From the NCBI GenBank assembly GCA_024867545.1, contig JANFNE010000007.1, forward strand, positions 496,001 to 560,000: a DNA stretch of 64,000 nucleotides. The letters are read 5' to 3'. The DNA comes from Phytopythium helicoides (Eukaryota > Oomycota > Peronosporomycetes > Pythiales > Pythiaceae). Below the pieces are notes generated by a model. It had not been told where the DNA came from. It did not search any database and saw nothing but the letters and a program-made list of their open reading frames with translations. Shown piece after piece: positions 4,735-49,200 of the stretch. The position numbers and the translations under genes were made by a program. Position 1 is the first letter of the stretch. Each line of letters begins with the position of its first letter.

Positions 4735-4904
4735 GCCACAACACACAACGAATCAATCCAACCAGATGCAGACGAGCCGAGCGAGCGGACAGGAGATAGG
4801 AAGAAGAAAAGAGTGTCGAGGCGCAGAGACGCAGAGACGCATGCAGACAGAGACGAGGCAGAGAGGTGTGGCTATGTGTCGTAACAGAAGTCAATAAAGA
4901 GAGA

Positions 4905-4948
4905 AAGGAGGAAAAAGAGGAAAAAGAGGAAAAAGAGGAAAAAGAGGA
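4905..4948 (-). repeat. 9-bp minisatellite, 4 units, 3' of tRNA copy 1
   Basis: Repeats of AAAAAGAGG on the plus strand, read as CCTCTTTTT in the tRNA sense. Each unit supplies a T5 run, the RNA polymerase III termination signal. Copies 1 and 2 have four units, copy 7 seven and copy 26 eight; type-B copies have about one. Confidence 0.85.
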
Positions 4949-5019
4949 TGCGCCGTCCGGGAATCGAACCCGGGGCATCTCGATGGCAACGAGATATTTT
5001 ACCACTAAACCAACGGCGC
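4949..5019 (-). tRNA. tRNA-Gly(GCC), copy 1
   Basis: 71-nt cloverleaf read on the minus strand: 7-bp acceptor stem GCGCCGT/ACGGCGC, anticodon loop TTGCCAT (anticodon GCC), T arm CCGGG-TTCGATT-CCCGG, discriminator A. Internal Pol III promoters match consensus: A box TGGTTTAGTGG and B box GGTTCGATTCC. No intron and no encoded CCA. T5 terminators follow at once. Type-A flanks on both sides. All 26 copies share this body as far as could be read. Confidence 0.97.
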
Positions 5020-5372
5020 TTCATGTACTGACACACAAACACCAACCACACTCATACCAACACAATCACACACACCACACAAACCCGCTCCCATCACACC
5101 CGCTTTACACCGCATCCACCCATTTACACACTTTCACACACACACGTCTCAAAACACAACCACAACACACAACGAATCAATCCAACCAGATGCAGACGAG
5201 CCGAGCGAGCGGACAGGAGATAGGAAGAAGAAAAGAGTGTCGAGGCGCAGAGACGCAGAGACGCATGCAGACAGAGACGAGGCAGAGAGGTGTGGCTATG
5301 TGTCGTAACAGAAGTCAATAAAGAGAGAAAGGAGGAAAAAGAGGAAAAAGAGGAAAAAGAGGAAAAAGAGGA

Positions 5373-5443
5373 TGCGCCGTCCGGGAATCGAACCCGGGGC
5401 ATCTCGATGGCAACGAGATATTTTACCACTAAACCAACGGCGC
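5373..5443 (-). tRNA. tRNA-Gly(GCC), copy 2
   Basis: Same body as copy 1, 424 bp away. The 3' flank is type A; the 5' flank (higher coordinates) switches to type B, making this the left A/B junction. Confidence 0.97.
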
Positions 5444-5790
5444 TTCATGTACTCACACACAAACACAAACAACACTCATACCAACACAACAACAACACAT
5501 GCAAACCCCTTCGCCTCACACCCGTTTTCCACCGCATCGACCCATTTACACACTTTTAGACACACCCGTCTCAAAAAAACAACCACAAACACAACGAATC
5601 AAACAAACCAGATGGAGACGAAGACGAGCCGAGCGAGCGGACAGGAGAAAGGAAGAAGAAAAGAAGAAAAGATAAAAAAGAAGAAAAGATAAAAAGAAGA
5701 AAAGAAGAAAAGAAGAAAAGAGACGCAGAGACGACGCAGAGAGGCGTGGATATGTGTAGGAAAAGAAGGCAAGAAAGAGGAAAAAGAGGA

Positions 5791-5861
5791 TGCGCCGTCC
5801 GGGAATCGAACCCGGGGCATCTCGATGGCAACGAGATATTTTACCACTAAACCAACGGCGC
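5791..5861 (-). tRNA. tRNA-Gly(GCC), copy 3
   Basis: Same body; type-B flanks. Extra GAAAAGAAGAAAA repeats in the 3' spacer make a 418-bp interval. Confidence 0.97.
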
Positions 5862-6212
5862 TTCATGTACACACACACAAACACAAACAACACTCATACC
5901 AACACAACAACAACAACACATACAAACCCCTTCGCCTCACACCCGTTTTCCACCGCATCGACCCATTTACACACTTTTAGACACACCCGTCTCAAAAAAA
6001 CAACCACAAACACAACGAATCAAACAAACCAGATGGAGACGAAGACGAGCCGAGCGAGCGGACAGGAGAAAGGAAGAAGAAAAGAAGAAAAGATAAAAAA
6101 GAAGAAAAGATAAAAAGATAAAAAAGATAAAAAGAAGAAAAGAGACGCAGAGACGAGGCAGAGAGGCGTGGATATGTGTAGGAAAAGAAGGCAAGAAAGA
6201 GGAAAAAGAGGA

Positions 6213-6283
6213 TGCGCCGTCCGGGAATCGAACCCGGGGCATCTCGATGGCAACGAGATATTTTACCACTAAACCAACGGCGC
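6213..6283 (-). tRNA. tRNA-Gly(GCC), copy 4
   Basis: Same body; type-B flanks; 422-bp interval to copy 3 from extra GATAAAAA repeats. Confidence 0.97.
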
Positions 6284-6626
6284 TTCATGTACACACACAC
6301 AAACACAAACAACACTCATACCAACACAACAACAACAACACATACAAACCCCTTCGCCTCACACCCGTTTTCCACCGCATCGACCCATTTACACACTTTT
6401 AGACACACCCGTCTCAAAAAAACAACCACAAACACAACGAATCAAACAAACCAGATGGAGACGAAGACGAGTCGAGCGAGCGGACAGGAGAAAGGAAGAA
6501 GAAAAGAAGAAAAGATAAAAAAAGATAAAAAGAAGAAAAGAAGAAAAGAAGAAAAGAGACGCAGAGACGAGGCAGAGAGGCGTGGATACGTGTAGGAAAA
6601 GAAGGCAAGAAAGAGGAAAAAGAGGA

Positions 6627-6697
6627 TGCGCCGTCCGGGAATCGAACCCGGGGCATCTCGATGGCAACGAGATATTTTACCACTAAACCAACGGCGC
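6627..6697 (-). tRNA. tRNA-Gly(GCC), copy 5
   Basis: Same body; type-B flanks; 414-bp interval to copy 4. Confidence 0.97.
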
Positions 6698-7033
6698 TTC
6701 ATGTACACACACACAAACACAAACAACACTCATACCAACACAACAACAACAACACATGCAAACCCCTTCGCCTCACACCCGTTTTCCACCGCATCGACCC
6801 ATTTACACACTTTTAGACACACCCGTCTCAAAAAAACAACCACAAACACAACGAATCAAACAAACCAGATGGAGACGAAGACGAGTCGAGCGAGCGGACA
6901 GGAGAAAGGAAGAAGAAAAGAAGAAAAGATAAAAAAAGATAAAAAGAAGAAAAAGAAGAAAAGAGACGCAGAGACGAGGCAGAGAGGCGTGGATACGTGT
7001 AGGAAAAGAAGGCAAGAAAGAGGAAAAAGAGGA

Positions 7034-7104
7034 TGCGCCGTCCGGGAATCGAACCCGGGGCATCTCGATGGCAACGAGATATTTTACCACTAAACCAACG
7101 GCGC
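7034..7104 (-). tRNA. tRNA-Gly(GCC), copy 6
   Basis: Same body; type-B flanks; 407-bp interval to copy 5. Confidence 0.97.
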
Positions 7105-7436
7105 TTCATGTACACACACACAAACACAAACAACACTCATACCAACACAACAACAACAACACATACAAACCCCTTCGCCTCACACCCGTTTTCCACCGCA
7201 TCGACCCATTTACACACTTTTAGACACACCCGTCTCAAAAAAACAACCACAAACACAACGAATCAAACAAACCAGATGGAGACGAAGACGAGTCGAGCGA
7301 GCGGACAGGAGAAAGGAAGAAGAAAAGAAGAAAAGATAAAAAAAGATAAAAAGAAGAAAAGAAGAAAAGAGACGCAGAGACGAGGCAGAGAGGTGTGGCT
7401 ATGTGTCGTAACAGAAGTCAATAAAGAGAGAAAGGA

Positions 7437-7502
7437 GGAAAAAGAGGAAAAAGAGGAAAAAGAGGAAAAAGAGGAAAAAGAGGAAAAAGAGGAAAAAGAG
7501 GA
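7437..7502 (-). repeat. 9-bp minisatellite, 7 units, 3' of tRNA copy 7
   Basis: Same AAAAAGAGG unit as at copy 1 but expanded to seven, explaining the long 469-bp distance to copy 6. Seven successive T5 runs lie just downstream of the tRNA in its sense. Confidence 0.85.
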
Positions 7503-7573
7503 TGCGCCGTCCGGGAATCGAACCCGGGGCATCTCGATGGCAACGAGATATTTTACCACTAAACCAACGGCGC
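7503..7573 (-). tRNA. tRNA-Gly(GCC), copy 7
   Basis: Same body inside the isolated type-A block; seven terminator-bearing 9-mers on the 3' side; 469-bp interval to copy 6, the largest in the array. Confidence 0.97.
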
Positions 7574-7890
7574 TTCATGTACTGACACACAAACACCAAC
7601 CACACTCATACCAACACAATCACACACACCACACAAACCCGCTCCCATCACACCCGCTTTACACCGCATCCACCCATTTACACACTTTCACACACACACG
7701 TCTCAAAACACAACCACAACACACAACGAATCAATCCAACCAGATGCAGACGAGCCGAGCGAGCGGACAGGAGATAGGAAGAAGAAAAGAGTGTCGAGGC
7801 GCAGAGACGCAGAGACGCATGCAGACAGAGACGAGGCAGAGAGGCGTGGATACGTGTAGGAAAAGAAGGCAAGAAAGAGGAAAAAGAGGA

Positions 7891-7961
7891 TGCGCCGTCC
7901 GGGAATCGAACCCGGGGCATCTCGATGGCAACGAGATATTTTACCACTAAACCAACGGCGC
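7891..7961 (-). tRNA. tRNA-Gly(GCC), copy 8
   Basis: Same body; its 3' spacer changes from type A to type B near 7,846; 388-bp interval to copy 7, the shortest. Confidence 0.97.
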
Positions 7962-8296
7962 TTCATGTACACACACACAAACACAAACAACACTCATACC
8001 AACACAACAACAACAACACATACAAACCCCTTCGCCTCACACCCGTTTTCCACCGCATCGACCCATTTACACACTTTTAGACACACCCGTCTCAAAAAAA
8101 CAACCACAAACACAACGAATCAAACAAACCAGATGGAGACGAAGACGAGTCGAGCGAGCGGACAGGAGAAAGGAAGAAGAAAAGAAGAAAAGATAAAAAA
8201 AGATAAAAAGAAGAAAAGAAGAAAAGAGACGCAGAGACGAGGCAGAGAGGCGTGGATACGTGTAGGAAAAGAAGGCAAGAAAGAGGAAAAAGAGGA

Positions 8297-8367
8297 TGCG
8301 CCGTCCGGGAATCGAACCCGGGGCATCTCGATGGCAACGAGATATTTTACCACTAAACCAACGGCGC
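8297..8367 (-). tRNA. tRNA-Gly(GCC), copy 9
   Basis: Same body; canonical 406-bp type-B unit. Confidence 0.97.
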
Positions 8368-8702
8368 TTCATGTACACACACACAAACACAAACAACACT
8401 CATACCAACACAACAACAACAACACATACAAACCCCTTCGCCTCACACCCGTTTTCCACCGCATCGACCCATTTACACACTTTTAGACACACCCGTCTCA
8501 AAAAAACAACCACAAACACAACGAATCAAACAAACCAGATGGAGACGAAGACGAGTCGAGCGAGCGGACAGGAGAAAGGAAGAAGAAAAGAAGAAAAGAT
8601 AAAAAAAGATAAAAAGAAGAAAAGAAGAAAAGAGACGCAGAGACGAGGCAGAGAGGCGTGGATACGTGTAGGAAAAGAAGGCAAGAAAGAGGAAAAAGAG
8701 GA

Positions 8703-8773
8703 TGCGCCGTCCGGGAATCGAACCCGGGGCATCTCGATGGCAACGAGATATTTTACCACTAAACCAACGGCGC
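8703..8773 (-). tRNA. tRNA-Gly(GCC), copy 10
   Basis: Same body; canonical 406-bp type-B unit. Confidence 0.97.
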
Positions 8774-9114
8774 TTCATGTACACACACACAAACACAAAC
8801 AACACTCATACCAACACAACAACAACAACACATACAAACCCCTTCGCCTCACACCCGTTTTCCACCGCATCGACCCATTTACACACTTTTAGACACACCC
8901 GTCTCAAAAAAACAACCACAAACACAACGAATCAAACAAACCAGATGGAGACGAAGACGAGTCGAGCGAGCGGACAGGAGAAAGGAAGAAGAAAAGAAGA
9001 AAAGATAAAAAAAGATAAAAAGAAGAAAAGAAGAAAGAAGAAAGAGACGCAGAGACGAGGCAGAGAGGCGTGGATACGTGTAGGAAAAGAAGGCAAGAAA
9101 GAGGAAAAAGAGGA

Positions 9115-9185
9115 TGCGCCGTCCGGGAATCGAACCCGGGGCATCTCGATGGCAACGAGATATTTTACCACTAAACCAACGGCGC
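9115..9185 (-). tRNA. tRNA-Gly(GCC), copy 11
   Basis: Same body; type-B unit lengthened to 412 bp by a variant GAAGAAAGAAGAAAG tract. Confidence 0.97.
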
Positions 9186-9529
9186 TTCATGTACACACAC
9201 ACAAACACAAACAACACTCATACCAACACAACAACAACAACACATACAAACCCCTTCGCCTCACACCCGTTTTCCACCGCATCGACCCATTTACACACTT
9301 TTAGACACACCCGTCTCAAAAAAACAACCACAAACACAACGAATCAAACAAACCAGATGGAGACGAAGACGAGCCGAGCGAGCGGACAGGAGAAAGGAAG
9401 AAGAAAAGAAGAAAAGATAAAAAGAAGATAAAAAGAAGAAAAGAGACGCAGAGACGAAGAGACGCATAGACGAGGCAGAGAGGCGTGGATACGTGTAGGA
9501 AAAGAAGGCAAGAAAGAGGAAAAAGAGGA

Positions 9530-9600
9530 TGCGCCGTCCGGGAATCGAACCCGGGGCATCTCGATGGCAACGAGATATTTTACCACTAAACCAACGGCGC
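9530..9600 (-). tRNA. tRNA-Gly(GCC), copy 12
   Basis: Same body; 415-bp type-B unit with an added GACGAAGAGACGCATAGAC segment in the spacer. Confidence 0.97.
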
Positions 9601-9936
9601 TTCATGTACACACACACAAACACAAACAACACTCATACCAACACAACAACAACAACACATACAAACCCCTTCGCCTCACACCCGTTTTCCACCGCATCGA
9701 CCCATTTACACACTTTTAGACACACCCGTCTCAAAAAAACAACCACAAACACAACGAATCAAACAAACCAGATGGAGACGAAGACGAGTCGAGCGAGCGG
9801 ACAGGAGAAAGGAAGAAGAAAAGAAGAAAAGATAAAAAAAGATAAAAAAGATAAAAAGAAGAAAAGAGACGCAGAGACGAGGCAGAGAGGCGTGGATATG
9901 TGTAGGAAAAGAAGGCAAGAAAGAGGAAAAAGAGGA

Positions 9937-10007
9937 TGCGCCGTCCGGGAATCGAACCCGGGGCATCTCGATGGCAACGAGATATTTTACCACTAAACCA
10001 ACGGCGC
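9937..10007 (-). tRNA. tRNA-Gly(GCC), copy 13
   Basis: Same body; 407-bp type-B unit with an extra GATAAAAAA repeat. Confidence 0.97.
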
Positions 10008-10342
10008 TTCATGTACACACACACAAACACAAACAACACTCATACCAACACAACAACAACAACACATACAAACCCCTTCGCCTCACACCCGTTTTCCACC
10101 GCATCGACCCATTTACACACTTTTAGACACACCCGTCTCAAAAAAACAACCACAAACACAACGAATCAAACAAACCAGATGGAGACGAAGACGAGTCGAG
10201 CGAGCGGACAGGAGAAAGGAAGAAGAAAAGAAGAAAAGATAAAAAAAGATAAAAAGAAGAAAAGAAGAAAAGAGACGCAGAGACGAGGCAGAGAGGCGTG
10301 GATACGTGTAGGAAAAGAAGGCAAGAAAGAGGAAAAAGAGGA

Positions 10343-10413
10343 TGCGCCGTCCGGGAATCGAACCCGGGGCATCTCGATGGCAACGAGATATTTTACCACT
10401 AAACCAACGGCGC
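10343..10413 (-). tRNA. tRNA-Gly(GCC), copy 14
   Basis: Same body; canonical 406-bp type-B unit. Confidence 0.97.
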
Positions 10414-10748
10414 TTCATGTACACACACACAAACACAAACAACACTCATACCAACACAACAACAACAACACATACAAACCCCTTCGCCTCACACCCGTTT
10501 TCCACCGCATCGACCCATTTACACACTTTTAGACACACCCGTCTCAAAAAAACAACCACAAACACAACGAATCAAACAAACCAGATGGAGACGAAGACGA
10601 GTCGAGCGAGCGGACAGGAGAAAGGAAGAAGAAAAGAAGAAAAGATAAAAAAAGATAAAAAGAAGAAAAGAAGAAAAGAGACGCAGAGACGAGGCAGAGA
10701 GGCGTGGATACGTGTAGGAAAAGAAGGCAAGAAAGAGGAAAAAGAGGA

Positions 10749-10819
10749 TGCGCCGTCCGGGAATCGAACCCGGGGCATCTCGATGGCAACGAGATATTTT
10801 ACCACTAAACCAACGGCGC
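10749..10819 (-). tRNA. tRNA-Gly(GCC), copy 15
   Basis: Same body; canonical 406-bp type-B unit. Confidence 0.97.
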
Positions 10820-11195
10820 TTCATGTACACACACACAAACACAAACAACACTCATACCAACACAACAACAACAACACATACAAACCCCTTCGCCTCACAC
10901 CCGTTTTCCACCGCATCGACCCATTTACACACTTTTAGACACACCCGTCTCAAAAAAACAACCACAAACACAACGAATCAAACAAACCAGATGGAGACGA
11001 AGACGAGTCGAGCGAGCGGACAGGAGAAAGGAAGAAGAAAAGAAGAAAAGATAAAAAAAGATAAAAAGAAGAAAAGAAGAAAAGAGACGCAGAGACGAAA
11101 AAGATAAAAAGAAGAAAAGAAGAAAAGAGACGCAGAGACGAGGCAGAGGCGTGGATACGTGTAGGAAAAGAAGGCAAGAAAGAGGAAAAAGAGGA

Positions 11196-11266
11196 TGCGC
11201 CGTCCGGGAATCGAACCCGGGGCATCTCGATGGCAACGAGATATTTTACCACTAAACCAACGGCGC
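11196..11266 (-). tRNA. tRNA-Gly(GCC), copy 16
   Basis: Same body; 447-bp unit because a roughly 41-bp part of the purine tract (GATAAAAAGAAG...GACGCAGAGACGA) is duplicated. Confidence 0.97.
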
Positions 11267-11596
11267 TTCATGTACACACACACAAACACAAACAACACTC
11301 ATACCAACACAACAACAACAACACATACAAACCCCTTCGCCTCACACCCGTTTTCCACCGCATCGACCCATTTACACACTTTTAGACACACCCGTCTCAA
11401 AAAAACAACCACAAACACAACGAATCAAACAAACCAGATGGAGACGAAGACGAGTCGAGCGAGCGGACAGGAGAAAGGAAGAAGAAAAGAAGAAAAGATA
11501 AAAAAAGATAAAAAGAAGAAAAGAAGAAAAGAGACGCAGAGACGAGGCAGAGAGGCGTGGATAAGGAAAAGAAGGCAAGAAAGAGGAAAAAGAGGA

Positions 11597-11667
11597 TGCG
11601 CCGTCCGGGAATCGAACCCGGGGCATCTCGATGGCAACGAGATATTTTACCACTAAACCAACGGCGC
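11597..11667 (-). tRNA. tRNA-Gly(GCC), copy 17
   Basis: Same body; 401-bp unit with a small deletion in the GGATACGTGTAGG motif (reads GGATAAGG). Confidence 0.97.
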
Positions 11668-12002
11668 TTCATGTACACACACACAAACACAAACAACACT
11701 CATACCAACACAACAACAACAACACATACAAACCCCTTCGCCTCACACCCGTTTTCCACCGCATCGACCCATTTACACACTTTTAGACACACCCGTCTCA
11801 AAAAAACAACCACAAACACAACGAATCAAACAAACCAGATGGAGACGAAGACGAGTCGAGCGAGCGGACAGGAGAAAGGAAGAAGAAAAGAAGAAAAGAT
11901 AAAAAAAGATAAAAAGAAGAAAAGAAGAAAAGAGACGCAGAGACGAGGCAGAGAGGCGTGGATACGTGTAGGAAAAGAAGGCAAGAAAGAGGAAAAAGAG
12001 GA

Positions 12003-12073
12003 TGCGCCGTCCGGGAATCGAACCCGGGGCATCTCGATGGCAACGAGATATTTTACCACTAAACCAACGGCGC
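12003..12073 (-). tRNA. tRNA-Gly(GCC), copy 18
   Basis: Same body; first of eight consecutive 406-bp type-B intervals. Confidence 0.97.
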
Positions 12074-12408
12074 TTCATGTACACACACACAAACACAAAC
12101 AACACTCATACCAACACAACAACAACAACACATACAAACCCCTTCGCCTCACACCCGTTTTCCACCGCATCGACCCATTTACACACTTTTAGACACACCC
12201 GTCTCAAAAAAACAACCACAAACACAACGAATCAAACAAACCAGATGGAGACGAAGACGAGTCGAGCGAGCGGACAGGAGAAAGGAAGAAGAAAAGAAGA
12301 AAAGATAAAAAAAGATAAAAAGAAGAAAAGAAGAAAAGAGACGCAGAGACGAGGCAGAGAGGCGTGGATACGTGTAGGAAAAGAAGGCAAGAAAGAGGAA
12401 AAAGAGGA

Positions 12409-12479
12409 TGCGCCGTCCGGGAATCGAACCCGGGGCATCTCGATGGCAACGAGATATTTTACCACTAAACCAACGGCGC
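12409..12479 (-). tRNA. tRNA-Gly(GCC), copy 19
   Basis: Same body; 406-bp type-B unit. Confidence 0.97.
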
Positions 12480-12814
12480 TTCATGTACACACACACAAAC
12501 ACAAACAACACTCATACCAACACAACAACAACAACACATACAAACCCCTTCGCCTCACACCCGTTTTCCACCGCATCGACCCATTTACACACTTTTAGAC
12601 ACACCCGTCTCAAAAAAACAACCACAAACACAACGAATCAAACAAACCAGATGGAGACGAAGACGAGTCGAGCGAGCGGACAGGAGAAAGGAAGAAGAAA
12701 AGAAGAAAAGATAAAAAAAGATAAAAAGAAGAAAAGAAGAAAAGAGACGCAGAGACGAGGCAGAGAGGCGTGGATACGTGTAGGAAAAGAAGGCAAGAAA
12801 GAGGAAAAAGAGGA

Positions 12815-12885
12815 TGCGCCGTCCGGGAATCGAACCCGGGGCATCTCGATGGCAACGAGATATTTTACCACTAAACCAACGGCGC
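12815..12885 (-). tRNA. tRNA-Gly(GCC), copy 20
   Basis: Same body; 406-bp type-B unit. Confidence 0.97.
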
Positions 12886-13220
12886 TTCATGTACACACAC
12901 ACAAACACAAACAACACTCATACCAACACAACAACAACAACACATACAAACCCCTTCGCCTCACACCCGTTTTCCACCGCATCGACCCATTTACACACTT
13001 TTAGACACACCCGTCTCAAAAAAACAACCACAAACACAACGAATCAAACAAACCAGATGGAGACGAAGACGAGTCGAGCGAGCGGACAGGAGAAAGGAAG
13101 AAGAAAAGAAGAAAAGATAAAAAAAGATAAAAAGAAGAAAAGAAGAAAAGAGACGCAGAGACGAGGCAGAGAGGCGTGGATACGTGTAGGAAAAGAAGGC
13201 AAGAAAGAGGAAAAAGAGGA

Positions 13221-13291
13221 TGCGCCGTCCGGGAATCGAACCCGGGGCATCTCGATGGCAACGAGATATTTTACCACTAAACCAACGGCGC
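13221..13291 (-). tRNA. tRNA-Gly(GCC), copy 21
   Basis: Same body; 406-bp type-B unit. Confidence 0.97.
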
Positions 13292-13626
13292 TTCATGTAC
13301 ACACACACAAACACAAACAACACTCATACCAACACAACAACAACAACACATACAAACCCCTTCGCCTCACACCCGTTTTCCACCGCATCGACCCATTTAC
13401 ACACTTTTAGACACACCCGTCTCAAAAAAACAACCACAAACACAACGAATCAAACAAACCAGATGGAGACGAAGACGAGTCGAGCGAGCGGACAGGAGAA
13501 AGGAAGAAGAAAAGAAGAAAAGATAAAAAAAGATAAAAAGAAGAAAAGAAGAAAAGAGACGCAGAGACGAGGCAGAGAGGCGTGGATACGTGTAGGAAAA
13601 GAAGGCAAGAAAGAGGAAAAAGAGGA

Positions 13627-13697
13627 TGCGCCGTCCGGGAATCGAACCCGGGGCATCTCGATGGCAACGAGATATTTTACCACTAAACCAACGGCGC
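13627..13697 (-). tRNA. tRNA-Gly(GCC), copy 22
   Basis: Same body; 406-bp type-B unit. Confidence 0.97.
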
Positions 13698-14032
13698 TTC
13701 ATGTACACACACACAAACACAAACAACACTCATACCAACACAACAACAACAACACATACAAACCCCTTCGCCTCACACCCGTTTTCCACCGCATCGACCC
13801 ATTTACACACTTTTAGACACACCCGTCTCAAAAAAACAACCACAAACACAACGAATCAAACAAACCAGATGGAGACGAAGACGAGTCGAGCGAGCGGACA
13901 GGAGAAAGGAAGAAGAAAAGAAGAAAAGATAAAAAAAGATAAAAAGAAGAAAAGAAGAAAAGAGACGCAGAGACGAGGCAGAGAGGCGTGGATACGTGTA
14001 GGAAAAGAAGGCAAGAAAGAGGAAAAAGAGGA

Positions 14033-14103
14033 TGCGCCGTCCGGGAATCGAACCCGGGGCATCTCGATGGCAACGAGATATTTTACCACTAAACCAACGG
14101 CGC
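14033..14103 (-). tRNA. tRNA-Gly(GCC), copy 23
   Basis: Same body; 406-bp type-B unit. Confidence 0.97.
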
Positions 14104-14438
14104 TTCATGTACACACACACAAACACAAACAACACTCATACCAACACAACAACAACAACACATACAAACCCCTTCGCCTCACACCCGTTTTCCACCGCAT
14201 CGACCCATTTACACACTTTTAGACACACCCGTCTCAAAAAAACAACCACAAACACAACGAATCAAACAAACCAGATGGAGACGAAGACGAGTCGAGCGAG
14301 CGGACAGGAGAAAGGAAGAAGAAAAGAAGAAAAGATAAAAAAAGATAAAAAGAAGAAAAGAAGAAAAGAGACGCAGAGACGAGGCAGAGAGGCGTGGATA
14401 CGTGTAGGAAAAGAAGGCAAGAAAGAGGAAAAAGAGGA

Positions 14439-14509
14439 TGCGCCGTCCGGGAATCGAACCCGGGGCATCTCGATGGCAACGAGATATTTTACCACTAAAC
14501 CAACGGCGC
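14439..14509 (-). tRNA. tRNA-Gly(GCC), copy 24
   Basis: Same body; 406-bp type-B unit. Confidence 0.97.
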
Positions 14510-14844
14510 TTCATGTACACACACACAAACACAAACAACACTCATACCAACACAACAACAACAACACATACAAACCCCTTCGCCTCACACCCGTTTTCCA
14601 CCGCATCGACCCATTTACACACTTTTAGACACACCCGTCTCAAAAAAACAACCACAAACACAACGAATCAAACAAACCAGATGGAGACGAAGACGAGTCG
14701 AGCGAGCGGACAGGAGAAAGGAAGAAGAAAAGAAGAAAAGATAAAAAAAGATAAAAAGAAGAAAAGAAGAAAAGAGACGCAGAGACGAGGCAGAGAGGCG
14801 TGGATACGTGTAGGAAAAGAAGGCAAGAAAGAGGAAAAAGAGGA

Positions 14845-14915
14845 TGCGCCGTCCGGGAATCGAACCCGGGGCATCTCGATGGCAACGAGATATTTTACCA
14901 CTAAACCAACGGCGC
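14845..14915 (-). tRNA. tRNA-Gly(GCC), copy 25
   Basis: Same body; last 406-bp unit. Its 5' flank changes from type B to type A near 14,968, inside a CAACAACAACACCACAC stretch. Confidence 0.97.
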
Positions 14916-15228
14916 TTCATGTACACACACACAAACACAAACAACACTCATACCAACACAACAACAACACCACACAAACCCGCTCCCATCACACCCGCTT
15001 TACACCGCATCCACCCATTTACACACTTTCACACACACACGTCTCAAAACACAACCACAACACACAACGAATCAATCCAACCAGATGCAGACGAGCCGAG
15101 CGAGCGGACAGGAGATAGGAAGAAGAAAAGAGTGTCGAGGCGCAGAGACGCAGAGACGCATGCAGACAGAGACGAGGCAGAGAGGTGTGGCTATGTGTCG
15201 TAACAGAAGTCAATAAAGAGAGAAAGGA

Positions 15229-15303
15229 GGAAAAAGAGGAAAAAGAGGAAAAAGAGGAAAAAGAGGAAAAAGAGGAAAAAGAGGAAAAAGAGGAAAAAGA
15301 GGA
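15229..15303 (-). repeat. 9-bp minisatellite, 8 units, 3' of tRNA copy 26
   Basis: Longest version of the AAAAAGAGG repeat in the array, eight units, beside the rightmost tRNA copy. Confidence 0.85.
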
Positions 15304-15374
15304 TGCGCCGTCCGGGAATCGAACCCGGGGCATCTCGATGGCAACGAGATATTTTACCACTAAACCAACGGCGC
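15304..15374 (-). tRNA. tRNA-Gly(GCC), copy 26
   Basis: Same body; rightmost copy, type-A flanks, eight terminator 9-mers; 459-bp interval to copy 25. The array ends about 64 bp beyond it. Confidence 0.97.
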
Positions 15375-15438
15375 TTCATGTACTGACACACAAACACCAA
15401 CCACACTCATACCAACACAATCACACACACCACACAAA

Positions 15439-35721: not shown

Positions 35722-38009
35722 ATGGAGCGCTGCGCCGGTGGAGCGCGCTGCGAGTGCGCGGCGGGCGAGGTCGCGCGCGTGCGGCTGGGGCTCGAGGCGC
35801 CTGCGCAGCTGCCGCGGGCGGTGGCGGACGCGCTCGCGAGGGTGCTGCCCAAGGTGAGGAGCGAGTCTGGCCGCTCGAGTCGGAGCGCTGGCAGCTGACG
35901 TGGCGTGGATGCCCGAGCAGACGCTTCGCGGGAGCCTCGTGTGGGAAGGAAGGCGCAGCGCGGTCACGGCGCTGAGCGCCGAGGTGTGCGTCTCGTTCTC
36001 GGCCATCGAGTGGGGGCGAGCAGGCTCAGGATGCCGCGCGCGACTCGGCGTCATATCCGCCGACACCAAGATCGAGCTGCTCCTTGATCGCGAGGAGAGT
36101 CGACCGGCAGACTTGAAGCGACTGCAGCTTCAAACCGCTGAGCACTACGCTGAATTGATCGCGCGAGAGCTTGGAGGACTTGGAGACCACGCCACCCGTC
36201 TGCTGCAGTGCGCGCTCCTGCGGTTCCCAAATGCGGAATCGCCTAAAGTCCGAATGGAGCCTAGTGCTGGCGCTGTAATCAGCGGGCTGCCAGGAGTGGG
36301 CAAGACCTGCTTCGCAAGGTCGGTCGCCAAGGTCATGGAGCTGCACCTTGAGTTTGTGGACGCATCGAGCATCTTCCAGACTTTCATCGGCCACTCTGAG
36401 GTAGAGCTGGTCAAGGCATTCGAGCGAGCCTTGCAGAAAAGCCCGAGTATCCTCGTGATCGACGGCATTGAGTCTATTGCGGCGTCTCGCCACGCATCCG
36501 CCGACTCAGGAAGCGCTCTCGAAGTCGGCGTCTTAGGAACGCTACTTGCGTGTCTTGATCGGATCAAGAAAGAGTCACAGCCAGTGTTTGTCATTGGAAC
36601 AACGACGCATCCAGAAGACCTAGACGCGGCAGTTGTGTCGAACGGAAGGATGGATGTTGCTATCAAAATCGAACCGCCGACGCAGCCTCAGCGGAGAGAA
36701 ATCTTGCAAATCATGACTAGTGCATGGGAGACGAGCAATCTTGAAGAGAGCTATCTATCTCAACTGAGCGACGCAACGGGCGGTTTTGTCGGTGCAGACC
36801 TTCTGAGCCTGTGCCAGCGGGTACTTCAGAGCTCGCTAAACGATTCGTTGGCAGGATCTACAGAAGGACCAGTTGTCCTCCCTCGCCATTTCGAAGACGC
36901 CCTTGTCTCCACTTTTCCTTCGGCGCTGCAGGCTCACAGTGTATCCAAGCGTGAGCTCACAGAGTCGAATGGGAATGACCAAGACCGGTCGCCATTCAGT
37001 AAAGTGTTTGGTTTGGACCAGGCCATCGAAGCCATCAAGGTGTCGCTGATCGAACCTCTGGAAGACTGCTCTCGTTTTCTTACCTACGGCACTGTTCCTC
37101 CCAAGGGAATCTTGCTGACCGGCCCTCCGGGGTCCGGTAAGAGCCATCTCGCTCTTGCTATCGCCTCCGAAGTTCAGCGACGAGGACTCGCGTCTTTTGT
37201 GTCGGTTCGGTGCACCGACCTGCTCACCAAGGTGGTTGGCGACACTGAGAAGGCTCTGCGTGAGCTCTTTGCAACTGCTCGCAACGCCGCCCCGTGCGTG
37301 CTGTACTTTGATCAGATCGAGAGCATCGCCCCGGTGCGCGGGTTCGACACGAGTACGGAGCAGACTTTCGACCGGATGCTGAGCATGCTTCTGGTCGAGA
37401 TGGACGGGTTTAGTACGAGTCGGTCGAAGCTGCAGGCTAGCCAGACGAGCGAGGCTGCGAAGTCCGCGTTCCTGAAGGAGCACGTCGTGATCCTCGCGTC
37501 CACCGCGAACAAGGCGCTGCTGGACCCAGCCATCCTCCGCCCAGGGTACGCAAGCACGTCATGCCGAATCCTTCTCCTTCACTCACGTTCCTTGTGTCTC
37601 CAGCCGCTTCGACGTGCACGTCGAGCTGGCGTATCCTGACGAGGCTGCGCGCCGCGCCATCGTTTTGGATGCGCTGGCGACCATCCCGCTGGCGTACGAC
37701 CAGGACCCGAGCCTTCACAGCCCCGAGGCCGTGGCCGCGTACGTGGCTCGCCACACGAGCGGCCAGTCGGCAGGCGACCTAGCGTCGCTGTTCCGCGAGG
37801 CGGCCATGGCCACGCTGCGCGAGGACCTGGCGGCCTCGTGCGTGGCCGTCGGCCATGTGACGCGCGCACTGACGCCGGATGTAGCCATATCAGTGATGAG
37901 AGGCCCTGCGCGCCGCCAACGCATCGAAGGCGGCAGGCCCATGTCGTTCCGCGGCAACGGTACGAAAGCACGGTACAGCATACGAAAGCACGGTACACGG
38001 GACTTGTAA
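35722..38009 (+). CDS. tandem AAA+ ATPase of the CDC48/AFG2-SPATA5-like group
   Basis: Three exons, 35722-35853, 35918-37545 and 37604-38009 (introns 64 and 58 nt), 721 aa. Domain 1: Walker A SGLPGVGKT (about residue 172) and SRH-type GFVGADLLSL. Domain 2: Walker A TGPPGSGKS (about 435), VGDTEKALRELF and an intact DPAILRPGRFD sensor/Arg-finger region created by the last splice. The Walker B motifs read LVIDGIES and LYFDQIES: the usual catalytic Glu after Asp is Gly in domain 1 and Gln in domain 2. The N-terminal 130 residues fit a divergent CDC48-type N-domain. Such ATPases unfold or extract proteins; SPATA5-type members act in pre-60S maturation. The loss of both Walker B glutamates suggests weak or regulatory ATPase function. 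A 17-bp direct repeat codes for the C-terminus. Confidence 0.8.
37962..37998 (+). repeat. 17-bp direct repeat at the end of the AAA ATPase gene
   Basis: TACGAAAGCACGGTACA occurs at 37962 and again at 37982, so the C-terminal codons are a partial duplication; related GTACGGTACA sequence follows just after the stop. Confidence 0.75.
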
Positions 38010-38144
38010 AAGGATCCAGTACGGTACACCATACTAGGAGTGACTTTTTGCGCACCAATTCTTTGAATTGAATGAATTGGTGCAGCACTGTACCGTCGTG
38101 CTCCTGCAATCTGGTACGCGTACCGTGAGTTCTATGCATTCGAA

Positions 38145-39774
38145 ATGCGCGGCGCTCGGCGGCGGCGTCCCACAGCACCTGGCGCGGCAGTGGCGCCGCT
38201 GCATGTGCGGAACCGCTACCGGTCGCGTCCGCCAGACTTCTACGCGCTGGGGGAGCAGTACGCGAGCTTCCGGCGGCAGTGAGTGGCTGCTTGGCGCCAG
38301 ACGGACGGACGGACGGACGCGATTGACGCGGCTGCCAGCCTCAGGGATGTGGACGACGAGAAGCGGCGCGCCAGCATGGCGTGGGACGACCCGCTGGCGG
38401 TCAGGTGGGCGGACGGCGGCGCTCGGCGCGCTCTGGAGGACCCGCGCTGACTGGCGACCGCGTAGGGAGCTCACGGCGACGCTGCTGCGACACGACTTCG
38501 GGCTCGAGTGGACCATGCCCAGCGACAGGCTGTGCCCGCCGGTGCGAGCGCCGGACAACTTGGCCCCTCGGCGCACAACCCACGCGGCTGATGCATTCCT
38601 TCCTGCTAGGTCCCGAACCGCCTCAACTACTTGCACTGGGTCGAGGACCTGCTCGCGCTCACTGGCGCATCCGACGCCACCAGGTCCGGGATCGACGTGG
38701 GCACCGGCGCCAGCTGCATCTACGCGCTGCTAGGAGCCAAGATGAACGGCTGGCGCTTCCTAGCGACCGAGGTCGACCCAGAGTCGGTCGCGAGCGCTCG
38801 TGCAAACGTGACGCGCAACAACCTGGGCGATCACATCACCGTGCGCCAGACGTACACGAACCGCCTTTTAACAGAGCCACTCGAAGGGGAGCCAGCGGAC
38901 CGCAAATTCGACTTCACGATGTGCAACCCGCCGTTCTTTGACCACATGGACGAGGCGGATACGAATCCGAGCAACTGCTGCATGGGCAGCGAGAGCGAAA
39001 TGGTCTTCCCAGGAGGCGAAGTCAACTTTATTGGTATCATGATCCAAGAAAGCATCGTTTTGAAGGACCGAATCGTATGGTTTACGTCCATGGTGGGACG
39101 TAAGTCTAGCCTACGGAAGTTACTAGCAATGTTGCGGGAAAACCAGATTCCAACCTATCGAACAACAGAGTTCTTTCAAGGAAGGACGAAACGATGGGGA
39201 ATCGCGTGGACATTCGCAGCAATGCCCCCACCAGATTCATCGGTTTGTATTGCTCCCCACATATTCTCTTGTGGCTGTACACTTACTAGGGTTTGCACAG
39301 TCCAAGGTGCTAGGAAAACGAAAAGAAGCACACCGACGTCAAGAGTTGACATTCGAGGTACCAAAGAACAACGGACAAGGTACACTTTCCATTTGAGGAT
39401 CGGTGCGGCCGGTGAGGTCATTCATCAAAAATGTATCAGGGTGCGCTTCGATTGAGGAGATTGACAAGCGACTACATGATTTTGCTGCCTTAACGAGCGG
39501 ACTGGACCTGATACGGACCAGCACAACAGTTCCACACTGTTTCGAGTTTGTTCAGCGCACTGAAGACCCATCAATCAATGGCAAGCTGGCCCTTTTCGCC
39601 GGCAAGATTCGTGTTCTCCAGTGCAATGAGAAGGAGGCATTCAGTGTATCAATAATGTTCGAGAAAGGTGAGCGCTCCGAGTTCTGGAAGGTTGCTGACA
39701 AGATGGCCGCGGCAGTCATTCGTACAGGTCGAAAATGGAGACGGCAAAAAGGTGACTGTGGTGCATCAACATGA
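38145..39774 (+). CDS. METTL16: METTL16-like RNA N6-adenosine methyltransferase
   Basis: Six exons: 38145-38278, 38339-38404, 38466-38541, 38610-39242, 39301-39379 and 39440-39774; introns 58-68 nt. Family signatures in order: LHVRNRYRSRPPDF at the N-terminus (RNA-binding), a LLRHDFGLEW segment, VPNRLNYLHWVEDLL, the SAM-binding GIDVGTGASCIYALLGA, FLATEVDPES, the catalytic NPPF in FTMCNPPFFDH, and RTTEFFQGRTKRWGIAW. METTL16 methylates U6 snRNA and some mRNA hairpins. The C-terminal 130 residues are less conserved, as usual; whether they form the vertebrate-type VCR domain was not clear. The last exon end was taken at the first stop; a further small intron near 39,727 is possible. Confidence 0.93.
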
Positions 39775-43204: not shown

Positions 43205-46200
43205 ATGCGGCAACCTCGAGTCACAGAGACCTTAGTTGCAGGTCTGTCGCTGTTTGGAGCTCTGTGCTTCACCTTAGTCAGCGGCGATGACCCGATTCCT
43301 CGCGCGGCCGACATTGTGACCGTCGCTCAGGTGGACGGGTTCAAGGTGCTAAACCCAGCTGGTTTCAGTGCTTCCTGCCGCCCAATGAGCCATTATGAAG
43401 CTCACTAGCGTATTCTCGTTACCGCTCCTATGTGGTCTGCAGAATATTCGACTTGAGGCGAGCCTTGCGATTCCAGATGGAGGCGAGTTGCTGCTCCCGA
43501 TCCAAGTCCCACGAGAACCAATTCTCATAGATAGTAGCGGGCCAGCAAAGGTCACACGCGTGTACTCGGATCACGTCGACGGATCATTTGGCGTTGGTGA
43601 GAAGATCAGCATTTTTGTCGAGTTCACGAGTGCTGTGCAGGTTGTGGGGGACCCGCCGAACTTGACACTTCGGACAGGATGTCACGACTCCAGCTGCCAT
43701 ACGCGAGAGGTTCAACGTATTAACTGCCGAGCTACCGGGGGCAAGTTTTCGGTAGCATTCGGCGACCAAGCGGCTACGAACATTCCCTGGAATGCGAGTG
43801 CCCGTCAGTTCGCAGCGTATTTGACACGAATGACATCGATCGACAAAGTGCTGGTCAAGTACAGCATCGACGAGGACCGTGCTTGCACATACTTCGGAAA
43901 CAACATTACAGTCACATTCGAGTCGATGAACATCTACGGAAGTGATGGAGATCTACCGACCATGACTGCTGACCCACTCAATACCAATGGAGATGGCACT
44001 CTTCTCGAGCATATTGTGTATACTCCGACGCTCACAAGCACAGCTTGGGAAATCCACAAAGGACGAAGGGTGCCTGATCGATCTGCAGCATTTGCAGGGA
44101 GCTTGAACCAGAAGACGCTCAAGTTTGATTATGTTGTTCAACAGGGCGACAATGCGACGCTTCTAGACTACGTGAGCAGTGATGCTTTGGAGCGCTCGAT
44201 AGTTAGTTCTCGGCGCACCAATCTTCTTAATGCTGGGTCAAATGTGCCAGCGGATTCAACTCTACCCCCACCTGGCTTTGCTGGAGATTGGGAAAGAGGG
44301 ATAGGAAGCAGTCTGTCAGCAAACAGCGCGTTGACTGTCGATGTTTCGGCCCCCAAAGTGACGAGCGTGACTTCACCGCACAATGATGGGACGTTTGGCA
44401 TCGGTGAAGAGATTTTGATTCACGTTTACTTTTCACGACCAGTCGTTGTGACAGGTGACCCAACTATCGTGCTAGAGACAGGATTAGTTGACCGCATTGT
44501 GCCTTTCAACCAGGTGTTGCCGACTAATGACAAGGTAGTTGAATTCCGCTACATTGTGCAATCGAAAGACACAACGCCCGACCTTGCTTACACCGGCACG
44601 ACAGCTCTTCAGCTGAACTCCGGAACGATCAAGCGCAAGTCGACTACACCGACCACTGATGCGATTTTAACGCTCCCGGTCAATGGTGGGTCAGGAAGTT
44701 TATCAGTTAACAAAAATATTGTGATCGACACCTCCGACCCGAAAGTGCTGACGGTAACTACAACGACAACAGACGGCGTTTATACAGCTGGAGATACAAT
44801 CCAGTTGATCGTGTCGTTTGATTCGCCTGTTGCAGTGACCGGAACACCTCAACTACTCCTCAACACGGGATCTGTGGATCTTTTCCCTGGAGCATTTATT
44901 CAAAAAGCACCGGCTGCTGACTCTAAAACAATCATCTTCCCACCAGTTGAGCACGGACTATCAACAGTAACAAGCGCAGGATTGCAGTTCAAGATCGGTC
45001 AGCAGATTCTTACCGTAAGCTCTGTCAATGGGGATTCAGTGAGAATGGTCGAAGACTACACTGGAAGCATCGTTAATCCCGCTGTCATTGGTGGACCAAG
45101 CATACCAATCATGTCACCGGGCTACCGCCCAGCAAACTATATTGGTGGGAGTGGGTCAACTCAATTGACATTCGCTTATATTGTTCAAGTGGGTGATACG
45201 TCGTTGGATCTCGCTTATATATCTAGCACCGCACTGATCACAAATGGAGGATCGATTCGTCGACTATCAACAACACCATTCACCAATGCAGACTTGACGC
45301 TACCGACTCCAGGAGCGACTGGAAGTCTCAGCGCTAGCTCAAACCTGATTATTAACACAGACCGACCACGCGTTCTTGCTGTAAACCCCCTTACGCGTGA
45401 CGGAGTTTATCGCGGTGGAGAAGACATTCTAATTCAAGTCGTGTTCAACATGCCAGTTGTAGTCCAAGGCGGAGCAGAAATACTATTGGCCCTAAACGCC
45501 CCTGATTCAGAGCGATATGCAGTGTACACAAGTGGCAGCGGAACCAGCTCATTGACATTTCGATACACATGCCGATCGAATGATCCAGTTGTACAAGTAT
45601 TTGATTATGTAGGAGTAACATCGCTGCAGCCAGCATACGGCCAAGTTTTTGGGTGGATACGCCGAAAATCAATGATGCCAATGGTTCCAGCGGTCCTAGC
45701 ATTGCCAGTTGCGGGGCTTTCATCGAAAGGGATATCAATTGACCAGGCCTGCGTCTATGTAATTACAGTATCAACCTCGGCCGAAAGTGGAATAAAAGGG
45801 GTTGGAGAGATTATTGACCTTACGGTCCTATTCTCTGCGAGCGTTGACGTGACCACCACAAACGGAAGCCCAACGATTGCTCTATCTACCGGAAATGTTG
45901 CGACTTTTCTCTCTGGATCAGGATCATCTACGTTGGTGTTCCGATATGTAGTCACCATCTCAGACGCTTCTGTGCGTCTCAGTTATCCTGACCGTTTTGC
46001 GCTCCAACTAAATGGGGGAGTGATTCGAGCGTCTGCCAGTGGATCGCTTGTAATGACACTTTTAGTTCCACCTGAGACAAGCCAATTAGCTACAGCCAGC
46101 GCTATTTTCACAGATACCTCTTCTCCTGTCATTCAGTCTGTTTCTATTCGCGATCCTATTGATGTGGTATCGGTTGGAGATCAATTAGAAATTGCAGTGC

Positions 46201-49200
46201 GCTTCAGCTCTGACATCTACGTTCAGCCTGCTCTAGCAGGTGCTGGATCTCCGGTGCTGTACATGGATGCTGGTACCGGAGCCGGTATTACGGCCCCTTT
46301 TGTTGCTAGCGACTCGAATACAGCCTACTTCACTTATACAGTTGGCACCGGCCAATCAACCTCTCACTTAACGTACGGGGCGCGAACCGCGCTAAAGTGC
46401 AGTGGCGGTCAGGGACTGAATAAGGACCCAGGCCAAGATGCTGCTTATACTCGCGGAAGAATTTTTCAAGGACGGGTGTATCTGGCATGGTCAGAAAAAT
46501 TGGCCTCTAACAACAAATGGCAATTGCGGATCAAGTCAACGGACCTTTCTCGATTTGCTCCTGTGTGGAGACCCGAAGATGGAGATACATTGACATCAGC
46601 AATAAACTATGATCCTGCAGCAGACGCTGTCTCCTCAATAATGATCGCTCTCTCCTCAAAACTGTATATTGTATGGCAAGAATCCAGTCAAATTCGTGTA
46701 GCACTTACAACTCCAACAATTCCATTCCGAAGATTTGTTGATCGAAATCCACCGACCTCTTCAGGAATTAACATGAACTCAGGTCGAAGCGCCACGGCTC
46801 CGCATGCAACCGTTCAGGCTTCGAAGCTCTATGTCGCATGGCACGAACCAGGAACAAGTACAGGACCAACCCAAGTGCGTGTAGCTGTTTACAGTGGAAA
46901 CGATAATAGTCCCTCTTGGACCTTTGTTGACGGAAATTCACCAACACTTGGACTCAATAAGGTGGGATCAAGCTCTGCTCAAAATGTGAGGCTCACTTCT
47001 TGTGGTCTCCCAGCTAGTGCATCTACCACCTACTTGTTTGCAGCGTGGGAAGAGACAGATTCAACTACAAATGTGATGCAAATTCGAGTTGCTGTGAAAA
47101 CAGGCCCAGATAACTTGCCAGCATGGAGGTTCATTGACGGCAATAGCCGATCAGGGCTCAATGTAAATTCCGCAATGATGGCTAGCTCATTATCGATGGT
47201 ATGCGCAAATGGCACAAGTCTTGTCGTCGCATGGCACGAAGCAACGAGCTCAGGCATCACGCAGATACGAATCAAGACTTTTACAGGAAGCTTGACGACA
47301 GCAGCTTGGGTGTTGTCGGATAATGGAAAGTCACTTAATTTTGATCCAGCCCAAATAGCTACGAATGTGCAACTGAGCGCGCGGTCGGCGTCTTCAGCGG
47401 TATTTGCAACTTGGGAGGAAGTTGATGCGGGTACTGCTAAAAAACAGCTACGAATGGCATACTTACAGACGACGACAGGAACTGCAAACTGGAGGTATTT
47501 GGATGGTGGGCAGCGCTTCTCAAGAATTAATGACGACCCTGCAAATAACGTGTATGAGCCAAAAGTCGTTGTAACCAGTCTTGAGGATAAGGCTATCGCA
47601 ATTTGGCACGAGTCATTTGTGAACGGCAAAACCCAGCTTCGTGCCAGCTTGCGCTCGATAGGAGTTGAGGAATGGCAGTCGATGTATAGCAACTGCATTC
47701 TACGGCAATCCTCTCAGCCGTCTGTGGCAGCAGTCCTACTTTTGCCTGTCAAAAACACACCCGGTGCTCTGGATTTCAACAGTGCGGTTGTTGTTGACAC
47801 CATTCCACCTATAATTAGGGATATTGGTCTTGCAGGTGAATCAATTTCTACGACAGCAAGCCCGAGGCAGCAACAAACGATCGATGTATTCAATCAAGCC
47901 AGCCTTACACAAGGCCAGTATCAGCTTCAATACGGAGATTCAGTACCTACCACGTGCATTGATTGGGATGCACCGGCGTCTGGAGGTTCAGGAAGCGTGG
48001 AGGACGCGCTAGAGACAATTCCTGGACTGGCACTAGACGTGTCAGTCAGCGTCGACACAAGTGCATTTCTTGATGGGAAGCGGTATACCGTTACTTTCAA
48101 CTTCCCGACTGCTGGTATCCAAGACTTACGTTTGGTATCCACCCCATTAACGAGTTGCGCATCGTTCGTTTGTCAGCCAACTGCACGTCTACGTTGTGAT
48201 GCAAATCATCTGGTGCACCTAGATGAAGGAACGACTACAATGCTGTATCGCGGAGTTACGGACATTGCGGTACGGTTCTCTTCGCCAGTTGTTGTTGTTT
48301 CGGGGACGCCGACTTTGGCACTCAACGTTGGCGTAAACCGAGCAGCAGTGTACACGACCCGCAGTGCCGTTCAAGAGTTTGATGTTGGTGTTGACTTTCC
48401 CAGTAAAGTTCTGAGAGCAGCCTTTCGACTTGCGTATGGCGATTTTAGCTCTGGTGTTGCAAATGGACCAGTGGTGACTACTGAGTGTATCGATGTTCCT
48501 CCAATCAAAGAGGACGCTGAGCAGCAGTTACGCGCTGCGTTAGAAAGCATACCAGCGCTGATGACCATCGGAGTGATCAGTATTTCTCGACGCACGCGCA
48601 GGAATGGATATCGTTACAGTGTAATGTTTCGGAACAGCGGTGATTTGCTTGATTTGGTTAGTGCGGATTCTACTCCTTGCACCCAAGTCAGCAGCCGCAC
48701 CCAAACAATTGACATCAAAGCGAATTCCGCGATTCTAGGCGGCGAATTCAAATTTCAGCTAGGAGATGTGAAGAGTGGTTGCGTCGCATGGAACCTTCGT
48801 GCACAGGGTCCTACTGGCTCGATGCAGTTTGCTATCAGTGACATCTATGGTGATCGAGTGGTACCACTTACCGTAGAAAAAGACCCTGCACTGTTCGATT
48901 ATGGACACCGATATTATGTCAACTTTTTGTTGTTGAATGACGCTTTGAAGCCGCTCAAAGCATTTTACGACGCCTCTTGCACTCCGTTTACTTGTGATGA
49001 TGGGAACGGGGGATCAACCTCGTGCTCTGGGCTTGCGATTGTCGCGAATGCAAACTATCAGGTCGCAAGAGCAGTTTCAGACACGCTATCGTTTCGATAC
49101 AGCGTGCAGCCGGGAGACGATGTTACCGCATTGCAGTATACAGCGTCTACAGCCCTGTCTGGTGACATCGTTCGAGCCTCTAGAGCACGAAATGTTGCTG

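Follow-up and report, generated by a model that had tools for sequence, protein, structure and literature searches.

Is a long run of identical transfer RNA (tRNA) genes a working supply of that tRNA, a passive repeat that happens to carry it, or an error of assembly, and what keeps its copies alike? The question is raised by a tandem array of tRNA-Gly(GCC) genes in a 64,000-nucleotide stretch of DNA, called here the window, which comprises positions 496001-560000 of contig C68 in its source assembly (49.06 Mb, 100 contigs); the array lies at 500.7-511.5 kb of that contig. It is very probably a conventional oomycete tRNA array, in which 26 head-to-tail, self-contained RNA polymerase III (Pol III) units supply the tRNA-Gly(GCC) of the genome.

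ARAGORN places 26 tRNA-Gly(GCC) genes head to tail on the minus strand of the window, from 4949-5019 to 15304-15374, and each of them scores 65.7 bits against the Rfam family RF00005, the gathering score of which is 29. All share one 71-nt sequence, letter-identical in 26 of 26 copies. The 25 spacers are 317-398 bp long. The commonest unit has 406 bp and is identical in 12 of the 25 units, while 14 distinct units are present overall; the copy number of 26 is the count in the assembly. Tandem Repeats Finder (TRF) returns a single 406-bp array in the window (5475-15131, score 15756), and repeat homology, with boundaries set by eye, extends from about 4735 to about 15438. The G+C content of the array is about 0.45-0.48. 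Such an arrangement is not attributable to chance.

The gene carries an A box (TGGTTTAGTGG) and a B box (GTTCGATTC), as judged by the standard consensus sequences. A run of five T begins at +6 past the 3' end of the gene, and at least one CCTCTTTTT stands immediately 3' of it in all 26 copies. The cloverleaf, the two boxes and the T-run terminator expected of a functional tRNA-Gly(GCC) gene are thus all found. Each copy would be transcribed from its own internal promoter and released at its own T-run terminators. A sequence-only reading of this DNA had described a tandem array of one isotype, made up of Pol III genes that look intact, with A and B boxes and a T5 terminator. The array is real, and the reading was correct on its coordinates and strand, on the number of copies and on the type of gene. 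The structure scan it had proposed, aimed at copies unable to fold, finds all 26 intact with both programs. A search of the array for other RNA genes in the spacers (Rfam, E<=1) returned the 26 tRNAs and 26 antisense matches to Plastid-ycf2; the latter reach 23.4 bits against a cut-off of 65.7 and were taken as chance. The 4 kb preceding the window hold no Rfam match at the gathering score.

The features of the array are listed below; the genes were located by ARAGORN and Rfam, the whole array by ARAGORN, TRF and inspection of its edges, the special units by unit typing, the core by spacer identity, and the two representative regions by base composition.

4735..15438, minus strand: the tandem array as a whole, by repeat homology, with 26 genes
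4949..5019, minus: tRNA-Gly(GCC) gene 1, at the array edge, A-type on both sides
5373..5443, minus: gene 2, hybrid, upstream B-type and downstream A-type
5791..5861, minus: gene 3
6213..6283, minus: gene 4
6627..6697, minus: gene 5
7034..7104, minus: gene 6
7503..7573, minus: gene 7, A-type unit within the B-type block; a T5 minisatellite repeated seven times downstream
7891..7961, minus: gene 8
8297..8367, minus: gene 9
8703..8773, minus: gene 10
9115..9185, minus: gene 11
9530..9600, minus: gene 12
9937..10007, minus: gene 13
10343..10413, minus: gene 14
10749..10819, minus: gene 15
11196..11266, minus: gene 16
11597..11667, minus: gene 17, downstream region given no type by the marker used
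12003..12073, minus: gene 18
12409..12479, minus: gene 19
12815..12885, minus: gene 20
13221..13291, minus: gene 21
13627..13697, minus: gene 22
14033..14103, minus: gene 23
14439..14509, minus: gene 24
14845..14915, minus: gene 25, hybrid, upstream mostly A-type (96.8%) and downstream B-type
15304..15374, minus: gene 26, array edge; downstream A-type, upstream flank leaving the repeat at about 15438
11597..14844, minus: homogenised core, eight identical 406-bp units in succession
8368..8467, minus: upstream region of gene 9 (representative), coding strand 80% G+T
8197..8296, minus: downstream region of gene 9 (representative), coding strand 88% C+T, six runs of four or more T, first T5 at +6

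The units are of two types. A-type sequence is found at gene 1, downstream of gene 2, upstream of gene 25 and at gene 26, and also at the inner gene 7; the remaining units have B-type sequence, gene 17 being typed upstream only. Over 190 aligned positions the upstream regions of the two types show about 20% differences; the genes show none. Because the genes are invariant, many units in the middle are identical and A-type units stand mainly at the two edges, the pattern points to homogenisation by exchange. Exchange between units, through unequal crossing-over and gene conversion, would keep the copies identical, and selection on the gene, acting together with it, would leave invariant genes between diverged A and B spacers.

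The sequence-only reading had also proposed a genome-wide count of Gly(GCC) genes. A DNA search of the whole 49.06-Mb assembly with the Gly gene (E<=10, all 26 candidates scored) placed 26 of 26 matches inside the array and none outside it. An exact 34-nt piece of the gene has no match in viral contigs, nor in bacterial or archaeal contigs, where none was expected.

The array has many counterparts in the same assembly. In the survey, which covers part of the isotypes, isotypes were read in fetched stretches and the copy numbers from DNA searches are lower bounds for most arrays. Single-isotype arrays comprise Thr(TGT) on contig C57, with at least 40 copies (the best 40 of 46 candidates) in a unit of about 737 bp; Lys(TTT) on C14, with at least 12 copies in a unit of about 1,135 bp; Lys(CTT) on C21, with at least 28 copies; and Leu(AAG) on C61 and C33, with at least 18 copies each in a unit of about 630 bp. 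The two Leu(AAG) arrays are about 84% identical to each other and are therefore counted as one family. The Lys(CTT) array starts at base 1028 of its contig and the Leu(AAG) array on C33 extends to position 499915 of 500494; both reach contig ends, so that their copy numbers are lower bounds. A composite array on C35 repeats Ser(AGA) and Val(AAC) in a unit of about 1,070 bp, with at least 38 Ser matches, Val having been read in a 2.4-kb sample. Another, on C4, repeats Ser(GCT), U6 small nuclear RNA (snRNA), Trp(CCA) and Thr(CGT) in a unit of about 1,820 bp, with at least 40 copies of Trp (the best 40 of 61 candidates). At least 48 U6 matches (the best 48 of 1,790 candidates scored) lie at C4:740793-853415 with 102.8-103.8 bits, and one additional copy in this array scores 85.9 bits; the U6 genes have a TATA-like box about 25-33 nt upstream and a T5 end. 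The 5S ribosomal RNA (rRNA) gene gave at least 47 matches (the best 47 of 2,394 candidates scored), with a 525-bp unit on C56. In all, tandem tRNA or 5S arrays were noted on C57, C14, C21, C61, C33, C35, C4, C56, C98 and C99. Other tRNA genes stand apart from arrays: Leu(TAG) is present on C22 and on C39, each time as two divergent genes, Ser(TGA) forms a convergent pair on C6, and no array of either was seen in the stretches surveyed. A single tRNA-Sec gene (C15:429299-429384, 71 bits) suggests selenoprotein synthesis. The human initiator Met tRNA, used as a query, found no match in the assembly, a result that is uninformative alone.

The organism is an oomycete. The AAA ATPase of the window is about 53-65% identical to proteins of Phytophthora, Pythium and downy mildews, with the closest entry at 80%; the mitochondrial Ymf99 reaches 88% with its closest entry and up to 61% with Phytophthora, and the organism apparently lies outside that genus. 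Three contigs (C89, C91 and C92) are mitochondrial and carry the same tRNAs in both orientations. Oomycete mitochondrial DNA with an inverted repeat is expected to hold tRNAs in both orientations.

The closest precedent is Phytophthora infestans, for which the available part of the published account (PMC9584435) reports that about 64% of the tRNA genes lie in same-gene arrays, Leu(AAG) among them, and that about two-thirds of the tRNA families are confined to one chromosome. Its repeats are near-identical, with variants often grouped near one edge, and unequal crossing-over has been proposed for them (PMC9584435). The Gly array resembles these in that a single tRNA gene is repeated head to tail on one strand with a unit length that is nearly constant (here most commonly 406 bp), in the concentration of an isotype at one place (here all 26 Gly(GCC) matches) and in the near-identity of its repeats, the genes here being fully identical and A-type variants standing at both edges and once inside. 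Val-Ser composites, as on C35, and Thr-Trp-Ser composites, as on C4, are common to P. infestans and the present assembly. They differ in size: the Gly array has 26 copies, and in P. infestans a single isotype can reach 271, as Cys does with a 513-nt unit situated entirely on Chr6 (PMC9584435). The part of that account at hand makes no mention of U6 in the Thr-Trp-Ser repeat or of G+T-rich coding strands upstream of the genes, and no work was found that links U6 snRNA, tRNA genes, tandem repeats and Phytophthora.

Two other systems are less alike. Entamoeba has tandem tRNA arrays, some with 5S and with units of up to five tRNAs, described in the part of the report available as being of unknown function and without a link to codon use (PMC2652664). 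Strand-biased spacers are a common trait: in E. histolytica one spacer strand is 70.8% pyrimidine on average, a bias not kept in all species (PMC2652664). The lineage, however, is another; the E. histolytica spacers are 80% A+T, against an array G+C of 0.45-0.48 here, and the Gly array has one gene per unit and a bias that flips from G+T before the gene to C+T after it. The Gly array, then, shares neither the lineage nor the A+T-rich spacers of arrays of that type. The human variable number tandem repeat at chr1q23.3 is likewise a tandem repeat with tRNA genes, with 9-43 units per allele, but its units are 7.3 kb long, GC-rich and bind CTCF, and a boundary element was proposed in the portion of that report consulted (PMC4041453). 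The Gly array is an ordinary example of a gene organisation already known from oomycetes. It adds a further oomycete, whose assembly measures 49 Mb, to the single-isotype tRNA arrays of Phytophthora; this oomycete shares the Ser-Trp-Thr and Ser-Val composites with P. infestans and apparently draws its Gly(GCC) supply from one locus. The earlier statement that such arrays are rare, being known from Entamoeba and a few plants, is incomplete: in P. infestans arrays are the prevailing arrangement (PMC9584435, in the part available) and the present assembly has at least six more.

Three explanations other than a conventional array have to be considered for the 26 copies. The identity of 12 of the 25 units is a setting in which assemblers err, and the arrays that end at the ends of C21 and C33 show that such arrays strain assembly; moreover, the DNA search could have missed another Gly(GCC) gene that has diverged strongly. 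The last two points weigh against the interpretation adopted here. An expansion created by assembly is nevertheless hard to reconcile with 14 distinct units, and neither it nor a passive satellite agrees with intact genes in 26 of 26 copies and sister arrays of other isotypes. A satellite built on a tRNA relic would show degenerate copies, with intact genes elsewhere, and here the copies are identical and intact. The suggestion of the sequence-only reading that the locus might be simply a satellite is unlikely because no Gly(GCC) copy was found outside the array, which is the only source found. Expansion by assembly or a passive satellite must, taken together, be considered very improbable. 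The same reading had linked the copy number to a demand for decoding GGC, raised by GC-rich genes and Gly-rich secreted proteins. GGC does lead the Gly codons (112 of 276) in eight unverified frames of the window when one giant frame is left aside; with that frame included, in nine unverified frames, GGA leads (248 of 673) and GGC accounts for 194 of 673. The link is not supported, as Thr, Lys, Leu, Ser, Trp, Val and 5S genes are arrayed as well, some isotypes in more copies (Thr(TGT), at least 40), and the correlation of tRNA copy number with codon use in P. infestans is only modest (R = 0.41; PMC9584435, as far as that account is available). That such a demand drove the copy number up is improbable, and no adaptation specific to glycine is shown or required.

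The spacers of these arrays are polar with respect to the strand. Over positions -100..-1 the coding strand has a G+T content of 0.77-0.90 in 12 of 12 arrayed tRNA and 5S genes compared, representing 11 families with one copy each and Leu twice: Gly 0.80 (0.81 in an A-type unit), Lys(TTT) 0.77, Lys(CTT) 0.84, Thr(TGT) 0.77 (the same in each of the 21 upstream regions that the stretch read contains), Leu(AAG) 0.89 and 0.86, Ser(AGA) 0.83, Val 0.83, 5S 0.82 and, in the C4 composite, Ser(GCT) 0.90, Trp 0.84 and Thr(CGT) 0.89. The highest background value is 0.71 among 4,246, obtained from both strands of 2,123 overlapping segments of 100 nt that lie in this window but not in the array. Unarrayed genes, of which five from three families were compared, have 0.58 and 0.60 (Leu(TAG) of C22), 0.52 and 0.48 (Ser(TGA)) and 0.55 (Sec), and U6 within the C4 array has 0.60. 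The bias of the Leu arrays was predicted before their loci were read and the prediction held; Ser(AGA) and Val, also read later, fit the pattern. In the C4 repeat the Trp gene points the other way, and so does its G+T strand; the bias therefore follows the gene and not the array.

Downstream (+1..+60) the coding strand is 0.70-0.85 C+T in most arrays. As a mark of arrays this half is not clean: Thr(TGT) has 0.60 and one single Ser(TGA) gene 0.75, so that only the upstream half separates arrayed from unarrayed genes. A run of four or more T soon after every arrayed gene was not borne out either, the first such run lying at +48 in Lys(TTT), +28 in Ser(AGA) and +100 in Val(AAC). No published description of this strand pattern in tRNA arrays was found. 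Among the matches listed, literature that combines GT-rich upstream regions with tandem tRNA genes concerned trypanosomes, replication impediments or fish mitochondria, and work listed for Pol III promoters of oomycetes included no title on oomycete tRNA promoters.

What may cause the bias can be approached through the changes that separate related spacers. G<->T changes make up 19 of the 25 differences between the upstream regions of the two Leu arrays, with 4 transitions, and 12 of the 23 between the Gly A- and B-types, with 5 transitions. Lys(TTT) and Lys(CTT), which align weakly (59% identity), differ at 50 upstream positions, where 18 of the changes are G<->T, 20 are A<->G and transitions number 23 in all. 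In the downstream regions C<->T accounts for 12 of the 24 Leu changes and for 3 of the 11 Gly changes. A functionless by-product of heavy transcription, in which deamination of the non-template strand turns A to G and C to T, would produce a G+T enrichment that tracks gene direction, as is seen, and its absence at the unarrayed genes sampled would fit if these are expressed less per locus. Deamination yields transitions, and it is consequently disfavoured in the two of three comparisons where upstream G<->T transversions outnumber them; the weakly aligned Lys pair, with more transitions than G<->T changes, goes the other way. Several downstream regions, furthermore, retain C and lose A and G. 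Such a by-product is rather doubtful as the cause. The spacers may instead be functional: the G+T strand could be an element for Pol III upstream of the gene, or a sequence favoured in strand exchange that keeps arrays homogeneous; RecA and Rad51 prefer GT-rich DNA and GT repeats, according to work cited in the part of PMC5948810 available. The separation of arrayed from unarrayed genes and from the background, the Leu prediction, the conformity of the reversed Trp gene and the predominance of G<->T in Leu and Gly agree with this. Slippage of TG or TTG units, however, can mimic G<->T changes, the Lys pair lacks the G<->T dominance, and a further Ser(AGA) copy, at the end of the stretch read, has 0.74 over 39 nt. 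Recombination alone leaves it unexplained why the strand follows gene direction, and the unarrayed genes manage without G+T, which is thus not needed for transcription as such. The comparison also draws on three unarrayed families and a background from this window, and the loss of the bias in some Entamoeba species warns that it may be non-essential (PMC2652664, in the part available). Functional spacers are tentatively put forward as one possible cause; were they real, the array would be held together by its own spacers. Given the GT preference of RecA and Rad51, a role in pairing between units would make a fair hypothesis. It is more speculative that a selected spacer code, G+T before and mostly C+T after the arrayed tRNA and 5S genes of oomycetes, serves Rad51-type pairing of units or marking for Pol III, and that spacers so make and maintain the arrays. 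Strand-polar spacers offer a testable handle on why some eukaryotes keep long tRNA arrays and on how these stay uniform.

Two other features of the window were noted. An uninterrupted frame of 5,106 codons (43389-58709, plus strand) has matches to the YHYH domain (PF14240) in three stretches of its second half and a G+C content of about 0.48, lower than the value of about 0.6 found for several genes nearby. At 35858-39455, also on the plus strand, the AAA ATPase frame is followed by a Methyltransf_10 frame; precomputed domains show the two domains together in database proteins of Globisporangium and Phytophthora cactorum.

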